From the NCBI GenBank assembly GCA_021740825.1, contig JAIOZA010000017.1:1-64000 (forward strand): a stretch of 64,000 nucleotides of DNA. Direction: 5' to 3'. Under the pieces are notes generated by a model. That model was given only the letters and a program-made list of their open reading frames with translations. It did no database searches and was not told where the DNA came from. A program made the position numbers and the translations under genes. This stretch comes from Bacteroidia bacterium (lineage in GTDB: Bacteria; Bacteroidota; Bacteroidia; B-17B0; Aurantibacillaceae). Positions 1 through 1,434 of the stretch are shown piece by piece. Numbering within the stretch: the stretch's first letter is position 1; each line of letters opens with the position of its first letter.

Positions 1-152
1 ACAAGGCTTTTCATTTTTCGTGGTAAATCATATTGCTAATTAGTTGCTCTCCAGCAGAGCTAATGTCCTCTTTTGACTTACAGGGCTAGTATAACAATTA
101 TTTTTATCAAAAGCACCAACTATTTTTTGCACCATTACCTTTTTTAAAAAAC
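1..152. other. Window edge, no convincing gene
   Basis: No convincing gene is visible. A minus-strand reading frame of about 31 codons starts with the ATG whose complement lies near position 133, but it has no recognisable motif. The stretch sits just outside the left 50-bp inverted repeat and may be a remnant of the sequence into which that unit inserted, or plain intergenic DNA. Confidence 0.4.
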
Positions 153-202
153 TACAACCTTGAAATATTCAAGTTAAATTTGAATATTTCAAGGTAAGTG
201 TT
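153..202 (+). repeat. Left 50-bp inverted repeat of the ATPase cassette
   Basis: This 50-bp sequence recurs in inverted orientation at 1385-1434 with one mismatch (G at 173). It is itself a palindrome: 15-bp arms at 158-172 and 180-194 around a 7-nt spacer, able to form a hairpin or cruciform. It ends one base before the stop codon of the ATPase gene (204-206), so it could also terminate that minus-strand transcript. The pair of repeats and their tight fit to a single gene suggest termini of a small mobile unit. No target-site duplication is obvious outside the repeats. Confidence 0.9.
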
Positions 203-203
203 T

Positions 204-1373
204 TTATATTTTTGGTAAATATTTAGTAATAAACGTTAATAAATCAACAACTATTATTTTATTTTTATTTATAAAATCAGCAGTTCCCGAACATATTACA
301 AAATTAAGTTTACTCCCTAAATCCTCTATACTATTATAATATCCTTTAGATACCACAGGCGCTTTACTTAATTTTATTTCAACGCATGCTTTAACAGTAT
401 TTCCATGTACTAATACTAAATCGCATTCGGCACCTGCGTGGGTTCTGTAGTAATAAGCGTCAATTCGGTTTGGTGCTGAATAAATAATTTGACTAATGAC
501 ATAACCTTCCCAGGATGCACCAACAGATGGATGATTGAGTAATTCTTTGTCGTTATGTATTCTAAGTAAGTAATGTAAAATACCGCTATCATTAATGTAT
601 ATTTTTGGCGCTTTTAATATTCGCTTACCATTGTTTACAAAGTAAGGCGGTAATCGCCGAATTAAAAAAGCGGCTTCTAAATAATCTAAATAGCGTTTTA
701 CTGTTGTGCCACTTAATTCTAATGATGATCCAAGATTTTCAGAGTTTAATATAGATCCTTGCAAATGCGCTAACATACCCCATAGTTTTCGCATAACAAT
801 TGGTGAAAATCGCACGTCAAATAAAAATGGTAAATCTCTTTCAATATAAGTAGTTACAAAAGCATCTAGCCAACCAAACACCATTTCGTTATCTTTTAAA
901 GTCAATGGTTTTGGAAAACCTCCTCTAAACCAATGTCTTTTTAAGCTAATAGTTGCTGGTAATTCTCTTAAAGCAATTGGATGTAAATTAAAATAATATA
1001 CACGGCCGGCCAAACTTTCAGAAGCGCCTTTCAATAAATCGGGTGATGCAGAACCAGTAATAATAAACCGAGCAGGTTTTCGTTTTTCATCTACTAAAGC
1101 CCTAAGCAGTGGAAATAGTTTTGGCATGCGTTGAACTTCATCAATCAATACGCAATCATCTATGTAATTGGTTAAATATTCTTCAGCATCTCTACTTAAT
1201 GTATTAAAATCGCTGTTTTTTTCTAAATCTAAATAGTGCGTTTTCTTTTTTAATGATTTAGTAATTTCTTTTACTAGCGTGGTTTTTCCAACTTGCCTAG
1301 GGCCTAATATCACAATAACTGGAAACTCCTTTAAATACTTATTTATAGTAGTTATTATTTCTCTATTTATCAT
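204..1373 (-). CDS. AAA ATPase with DUF4143 PD-(D/E)xK-like domain
   Basis: Predicted AAA_14/DUF4143 protein of 389 residues, normal for the family. It has a Walker A GPRQVGKT at residues 24-31, a Walker B ending in LIDEVQ (D78, E79), and a sensor-like IITGSAS near 104-110. A winged-helix-like stretch lies around 207-245. The C-terminal half carries E289, D318 and E332-I-K334, the layout of a PD-(D/E)xK nuclease-like fold. The family is widespread and patchily distributed in Bacteroidota and archaea; its biological role is not settled. Here the gene is alone, faces the same way as recJ, and is framed within a few bases by 50-bp inverted repeats, which hints at mobility. Whether the nuclease-like site is active is inference. 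The start is the ATG 11 bp inside the right repeat. Confidence 0.88.
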   Translation of the reverse strand: MINREIITTINKYLKEFPVIVILGPRQVGKTTLVKEITKSLKKKTHYLDLEKNSDFNTLSRDAEEYLTNYIDDCVLIDEVQRMPKLFPLLRALVDEKRKPARFIITGSASPDLLKGASESLAGRVYYFNLHPIALRELPATISLKRHWFRGGFPKPLTLKDNEMVFGWLDAFVTTYIERDLPFLFDVRFSPIVMRKLWGMLAHLQGSILNSENLGSSLELSGTTVKRYLDYLEAAFLIRRLPPYFVNNGKRILKAPKIYINDSGILHYLLRIHNDKELLNHPSVGASWEGYVISQIIYSAPNRIDAYYYRTHAGAECDLVLVHGNTVKACVEIKLSKAPVVSKGYYNSIEDLGSKLNFVICSGTADFINKNKIIVVDLLTFITKYLPKI

Positions 1374-1384
1374 AAAACAAAGAT

Positions 1385-1434
1385 AACACTTACCTTGAAA
1401 TATTCAAATTTAATTTGAATATTTCAAGGTTGTA
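1385..1434 (-). repeat. Right 50-bp inverted repeat of the ATPase cassette
   Basis: Reverse complement of 153-202 with one mismatch. Internal palindrome arms are at 1393-1407 and 1415-1429. It lies 11 bp upstream of the ATPase start codon, so besides being a possible element end it could be an operator through which expression is controlled. The recJ stop codon lies about 50 bp further on. Confidence 0.9.

Follow-up and report, generated by a model that had tools for sequence, protein, structure and literature searches.

A gene for an AAA+ ATPase with a PD-(D/E)xK-like nuclease domain, located near the start of the 64,000-nucleotide stretch of Bacteroidia DNA analysed here (the window), is likely to be a laterally acquired single-gene cassette whose product recognizes the palindromes which flank it. 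This view is built on sequence comparisons, which show that a palindrome, U, lies over the gene's own promoter and start, that in many Bacteroidota a matching palindrome, D, follows the gene, that the unit is present or absent as a whole at three chromosomal sites, and that residue 313 of the protein covaries with base X of the palindromic half-site CCXYG. The features of the window to which the text refers are as follows.

153-202, no strand: left copy of the 50-bp inverted repeat (direct reading)
157-195, no strand: D palindrome directly after the stop codon, 39 bp, 19-bp arms with one mismatch, 1-nt centre
158-162 (plus) and 194-190 (minus): D half-sites CCTTG
204-1373, minus strand: AAA_14/DUF4143 (PDC-S01-like) gene, 389 aa (domain search, PDC-S01 models, AlphaFold2 model)
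372-428, minus strand: codons of the PD-(D/E)xK-like active site E316, D318, E332 and K334 (conservation)
435-437, minus strand: codon A313, the residue which tracks base X (here T) of CCXYG (covariation)
507-509, minus strand: codon E289 of the PD-(D/E)xK-like active site (conservation)
1378-1385, minus strand: TATCTTTG, a TAnnTTTG box between U and the ATG
1385-1434, no strand: right copy of the 50-bp inverted repeat (direct reading)
1392-1430, no strand: U palindrome on the promoter side, 39 bp, perfect 19-bp arms, 1-nt centre
1393-1397 (plus) and 1429-1425 (minus): U half-sites CCTTG

The protein consists of an AAA+ ATPase, a winged-helix-like middle part and a PD-(D/E)xK-like C-terminal domain. 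Domain searches identified DUF4143 (E 1.2e-39; 107 bits against a curated cut-off of 27) and AAA_14 (E 1.1e-30; 136 bits against 28), a combination labelled COG1373. The PADLOC candidate models PDC-S01 match with E-values down to 7e-90. The AlphaFold2 model is good (pLDDT 90.3), and the predicted fold is similar to that of the archaeal ATPases 2FNA and 2QEN, ORC subunits, RuvB and other AAA+ proteins. Residues E289, E316, D318, E332 and K334 are kept in all 93 aligned proteins. Among 88 fresh proteins E289 is found in 87, D318 in 88, E332 in 83 (the other 5 have Asp) and K334 in 87. Judged by alignment, the family possesses the conserved E...D...ExK set of a PD-(D/E)xK nuclease. Because residues of a catalytic type are conserved, the protein is unlikely to do no more than regulate.

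The arrangement around the gene agrees with what an earlier, sequence-only reading had described. The two 50-bp inverted repeats differ at one base and each holds an internal palindrome of 39 bp; a single base separates the end of the left copy (202) from the stop codon (204-206), and the right copy starts 11 nt upstream of the ATG (1371-1373). Read in the direction of the gene, the order is the repeat (1434-1385) with U inside (1430-1392), the TATCTTTG box (1385-1378), the ATG (1373-1371), the 389-aa reading frame, the stop codon (206-204) and D (195-157). TAnnTTTG is the Bacteroidota -7 element. With up to 3 mismatches the 39-mer occurs at 2 places in the window and at none in each of 100 shuffles; thus the repeat pair is not a product of chance. 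The solo copies for which the sequence-only reading had proposed to look did not turn up: a BLAST search of the own genome, which is 87.6% complete, returned these two places only. The same genome contains the window gene as the sole DUF4143 gene found. The left flank of the cassette is short since the contig begins at window base 1.

The gene is distributed in patches. It was found in 29 of 60 relatives at E 0.001, in 31 of 87 family genomes at E 1e-30, in 44 of 395 class genomes at E 1e-90 and, by match, in 381 of 72,556 plasmid records. Neighbourhoods were inspected for 27 matches from these 381 records (about 28 loci when later near searches are included), all of them best or hand-picked rather than random; in one locus search 30 of 32 matches were taken. 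We know of no defence assay for the PDC-S01 family. According to PMC12988326, PDC-S01 is a single gene, an ATPase fused to a PD-(D/E)xK domain, which by abundance takes fourth place among prokaryotic defence systems (9,986 archaeal and 29,494 bacterial loci) and is treated as an unvalidated defence candidate without tested function. It may well be, with about an even chance, that the window gene is a phage-defence gene whose palindromes merely tether or regulate the nuclease and which spreads passively by ordinary horizontal transfer. The PDC-S01 match, the patchy occurrence and the standing of the family as a defence candidate (PMC12988326) argue for it. It is compatible with, not opposed to, a protein which recognizes its own palindromes.

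The palindromes were followed through 87 family loci whose proteins score 140 bits or more against the window protein. A dyad was counted when at least 14 of 19 pairs matched, upstream of the ATG for U or at the stop for D. A first palindrome score had given U in 28, D in 21 and both in 14 of the 54 best loci, against 2, 2 and 0 in 57 control genes; it was replaced because it was too strict for loopy or mismatched sites, and the figures for U and D quoted below are those of the looser count. A U dyad is present in 61 of the 87 loci, compared with 3 of 343 control windows, and 26 loci are without it at this threshold. Among Bacteroidota loci of at least 300 bits U is found in 38 of 54, D in 27 of 54 and both in 18; at 140-300 bits the numbers are 22 of 26 for U and 7 of 25 for D. 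Outside Bacteroidota the same count gives U in 1 of 7 loci and D in 0 of 7. A laxer measure was applied to 18 non-Bacteroidota loci (Alpha- and Gammaproteobacteria, Acidithiobacillia, Acidobacteriota, Deinococcota): a weaker inverted repeat which abuts the ATG, with at least 11 of 17 positions paired, occurs in 15 of them (control windows, 107 of 1063), and the CCTTG core, identical to that of the window, also in 15 (control windows, 99 of 1275). Three loci on viral contigs (L227, L228, L231), which carry the same palindrome, have U too. Palindromes of this type stand beside the gene in other places too.

The position of U is informative. A TAnnTTTG box no more than 26 nt from the ATG is present in 32 of 60 U-bearing loci as opposed to 1 of 298 control windows; where U is distant 19 of 29 loci have the box, and where U is near 13 of 31. 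To judge from this arrangement, U lies on the promoter like an operator. The dyads are predominantly of odd length (56 of 61 U, p 6e-12; 30 of 34 D, p 6e-6). A fixed protein geometry would give such a bias, and inheritance of length is the alternative. Protein identity correlates with the identity between U palindromes (rho 0.68, 190 pairs), a relation for which shared descent alone could suffice.

D is encountered less regularly. A D dyad at the stop was counted in 34 of 87 loci; it is missing in 52 of the 86 loci with a 3' flank, hence D is not essential. No second palindrome copy was found downstream in 15 non-Bacteroidota loci examined. Where D exists it belongs to its own element. Among 20 elements with both palindromes, own U and D are 88% identical compared with 56% between elements, and 0 of 10,000 permutations were as good. 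Of 59 loci with U, 22 have a U-like second site 10-31 nt after the stop; counted by rows, 225,571 own positions gave 32 such sites (two of these differ by a shift of one base), whereas 14.7 million positions in flanks belonging to other loci gave 8. Base X is identical in U and D for 18 of 21 elements. The sequence-only reading had offered a mundane alternative, that one palindrome is an operator and the other a terminator. Its first half fits the position of U. As to the second half, D as RNA forms a stable hairpin (-20.3 kcal/mol, z -7.65) with a terminator-like score in terminator prediction, and arm mismatches on the sense strand are more often G-T than A-C (40 vs 21, p 0.02), as a transcribed hairpin would give; this weak G-T excess leaves some room for a single-strand hairpin form. 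Yet a terminator requires neither a resemblance to its own U nor the same base X. D is far closer to its own U than to that of other elements, and is thus more than an unrelated terminator. Consequently, we regard as improbable a reading in which U serves as operator, D is a bidirectional terminator unrelated to it, and their likeness is incidental; termination of transcription may be a second role of D.

The main indication that the protein recognizes its own palindromes comes from the nuclease domain. When protein columns of 27 elements were scanned for mutual information with the core class CC(NN)G, residue 313 ranked first (z 10.4; next column 6.7). This residue is located between R310 and E316/D318, five positions before D318. 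The discovery set comprised 28 elements with a readable CCNNG class and was reduced to 27 by removal of L040, the singleton of its class; L040 fits the code and was later counted among the 41 coded elements below. In 27 of 27 elements residue 313 predicts X: Ala or Val goes with T (8), Gln or Asn with A (7), His with G (7) and Asp with C (5). These pairings are chemically plausible. The window element, with A313 and X = T in all four half-sites, conforms.

A wider set contained 79 proteins with the motif R[TS]xx[GD]xExD and a readable site, with half-sites placed by a register rule which is blind to X. Residue 313 is again the best column (z 20.7; next 9.3). Among the 52 non-discovery elements 41 have a coded residue and 39 of the 41 agree, the exceptions being L072 and L264; for those which are viral or from outside Bacteroidota agreement is 18 of 19. 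These 52 elements had been inspected by eye before the register rule was set, therefore only the 88 fresh loci constitute a clean test. For these, rule and code were frozen beforehand and 395 phylum genomes were searched with another member of the family as query; the loci are those from this search plus 60 further places, leaving out L274, a copy of L094, and L276 from the own genome. The unscored loci fall into three groups: the motif is absent from 15, the half-site cannot be read in 11, and the residue is uncoded in 15, mostly Gly, which occurs with either A or T at X. Of the remaining 47 coded and readable elements 42 agree, where shuffles gave a mean of 15.2 and a maximum of 28, with 0 of 20,000 as good; 19 of the 42 represent one and the same pairing, Asn with A, and many of these belong to genus g222. 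Four of the 5 failures are Ala with conflicting half-sites, and the fifth, L296, looks misread.

Covariation of residue 313 with X can also stem from shared phylogeny. In a tree calculated without columns 311-315 (L072, L226 and L023 left out) the number of changes is about 19 for X, 21 for the residue class and 22 for both jointly, so most changes coincide. The correspondence between residue 313 and X points to a protein which reads the DNA on its own flanks. A clean second code, for base Z, did not emerge; residue 312 ranks only seventh in the 79-protein set. A distant subgroup (L020, L021, L048, L050, L053, L066, L068) has the motif WRDKTGHE and a different palindrome type (GGAAT...ATTCC), as if it possessed a code of its own.

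Next to the palindromes, the chromosomal neighbourhoods are instructive. At the site between alaS and an M23 peptidase, in the genus of the window, the gene is present in 3 of 18 loci and 4 were not assessable; in the 11 loci without the gene the interval is 148-267 nt and has no palindrome (best palindrome score 8). At the site between GH3 and a glycosyltransferase in genus g2 the gene is present in 2 of 30 loci and 5 lack the GH3 neighbour; the 23 loci without the gene have 2-126 nt and no palindrome (best score 7), with one of these empty sites, L184, resting on a match of unchecked length. Between holA and mcm, again in the window's genus, 1 of 19 loci has the gene at the site and 9 are without mcm; in another 9 the gene is absent and mcm is located within 600 nt, at a distance of 33-37 nt in 4 cases. 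In G005, a relative of the holA-site carrier, the gene is about 1.8 kb from holA. Relatives lack gene and cognate palindromes jointly at these three chromosomal sites, thus the cassette is either there in full or not at all. In so far as the sequence-only reading saw in palindrome, gene and palindrome a real unit, it is borne out by these sites, by the patchy occurrence of the gene and by the palindromes of the same type beside the gene in other places. A prior residence of the palindromes, comparable to attB, was considered and discarded: none of cognate type exists at the 11 alaS, 23 GH3 and 9 holA empty sites. The holA-mcm interval of L245 (G006) harbours an unrelated GC-rich palindrome with 27-nt arms and a score of 18.

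The gene is not a fixture of the recJ locus, as it is absent from all 18 other recJ loci of the genus (flank up to 1.5 kb). The result which would have told against the sequence-only reading, a gene invariably found at recJ and never an empty site, did not arise. The sequence downstream of recJ, on the side of window positions 1-152, differs between species of the genus and looks like a variable site. With a left flank of only 152 nt and recJ neighbours which vary by species, an exact empty site for the window's copy was not obtained. The closest copies (63-77% identity; G023, G060, G041) have no neighbour in common with the window or with each other. A decayed copy in G061 is situated near the same upstream neighbours as the copy of G060 and has retained its D palindrome.

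Do these cassettes move on their own? An autonomous transposable element, in which cuts by the AAA+ nuclease at the two palindromes free the unit, perhaps hairpin-ended after cruciform resolution, for insertion elsewhere, would accommodate the tracking of the palindrome by a nuclease-domain residue, the conserved catalytic-type residues, the match of U and D, empty sites which lack the gene and both palindromes, and four closest copies in unrelated contexts; the similarity of the AAA+ part of the model to RuvB, among others, points the same way. Nevertheless, we consider it unlikely. Matching ends on both sides are present in the window, yet family-wide D accompanies only 34 of 86 loci with flank and its orientation is not fixed: of 22 elements the flanks of D fit U better as an inverted copy in 12 and as a direct copy in 6, and the cores are uninformative (inverted 8, direct 10). 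Outside Bacteroidota D was found in none of 7 and none of 15 loci, yet the gene is widespread on plasmids. In Rhizobium, the DNA common to copies which are 97% and 93% alike begins 85 nt before the ATG, which is beyond U, so U is not the physical end there; in the 97% pair the shared DNA reaches near the stop. At greater distance the alignment starts at the edge of U, which selection on U alone would also give. For Bacteroidota no equally close pair in new contexts was found. The empty sites at alaS, GH3 and holA are too diverged for junctions or a target-site duplication to be read, and near-identical copies within one genome were not seen. The Agrobacterium record H197, inspected as an empty site, proved to be an internally deleted copy.

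Several loci have peculiar surroundings. Thermus thermophilus copies are surrounded by insertion sequences and have only a weak inverted repeat; in L103, on a plasmid of this species, IS5- and IS630-type insertion sequences are close to both gene ends. In L075 (G424) three tandem palindromes follow the stop (about +1 to +220, at +21, +109 and +198); the distance between them is 88-89 nt and their spacers are similar. L008 and L090 each have one additional copy upstream, at a comparable distance. Directly beside L043, upstream, the 5' part of a further family copy persists in decayed form, together with a palindrome of its own. Right behind the gene of L101, on a Runella rosea plasmid, begins what looks like a CRISPR array, a repeat of about 30 nt separated by unrelated spacers.

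The sequence-only reading had likened the unit to RAYT/REP. Mobilization in trans by another transposase, as for a REP/RAYT- or IS200/IS605 (PATE)-like element, would suit a unit which contains neither a DDE nor a Y1 gene and has palindromes at or near both ends; near-terminal palindromes are on record for PATEs (PMC3119063). The cassette's protein gave AAA- and DUF4143-type matches only, and a Y1 (HUH) transposase domain was not found in it. However, the palindrome differs between elements and tracks the element's own protein, and it is not dispersed in the genomes searched: strong matches to the window palindrome, among the best candidates (at most 10 per genome), are confined to family genes and to 3 of 87 family genomes. 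The analogy finds no support, and we consider a mobilization of this kind highly improbable.

Returning to a cassette which recognizes itself, we propose the following. The AAA+ ATPase/PD-(D/E)xK protein would bind U and D through its nuclease domain at the outer half-site CCXYGZAA, probably as a dimer in view of the odd-length dyad. At U it would block the promoter, so that the gene would be autoregulated, a view prompted by the position of U; the protein probably acts there as an autorepressor. D, where the cassette ends, would offer the protein a second site to occupy. The nuclease would be held at its own sites until a trigger, such as phage, incoming DNA, or cruciform or hairpin formation, releases or activates it. 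A bolder version is a self-recognizing mobile element, which reads programmable palindromes at both ends by a code of one residue and one base, resolves cruciforms, releases a hairpin-ended or nicked intermediate and inserts elsewhere. We deem this rather doubtful; if true, one of the commonest 'defence' genes would be a new kind of minimal transposon. A cognate DNA site and a deducible code make PDC-S01 directly testable, because the exact oligonucleotide stands beside each gene; if the code holds, a single-residue swap should alter the preferred base. The outcome bears on whether PDC-S01 genes are defence genes, selfish cassettes, or both.

How does the cassette compare with known systems? 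With PDC-S01, i.e., AAA_14 plus DUF4143, it shares the sequence family, the single gene and the ATPase-PD-(D/E)xK fusion, whereas the palindromes present here are lacking from that description, in that neither 'palindrom' nor 'inverted repeat' appears in the main text of PMC12988326. In the open-licence literature, partly at the level of abstracts, we found no report of palindromes or inverted repeats with DUF4143, COG1373, PF13635 or PDC-S01. PATEs and IS200-IS605 elements resemble it in near-terminal palindromes and in presence or absence between strains (PMC3119063); in contrast, the cassette has no Y1 transposase and its palindromes are specific to each element's protein. RAYT/REP units likewise have a gene between palindromes, yet here neither dispersed copies nor a Y1 protein in the cassette were found. 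Homing endonucleases such as I-TevI repress their own gene, and the likeness would be a nuclease which binds an operator over its own promoter; the differences are a site which is intact beside the gene, a long palindrome, an AAA+ ATPase, and no intron or intein. Finally, the controller (C) proteins of restriction-modification systems and autoregulated toxin-antitoxin operons combine a cognate palindromic operator, lateral mobility and self-regulation. The present cassette appears similar in all three respects, its regulation being presumed, but here one protein would be both reader and nuclease, and a second site is positioned at the 3' end.
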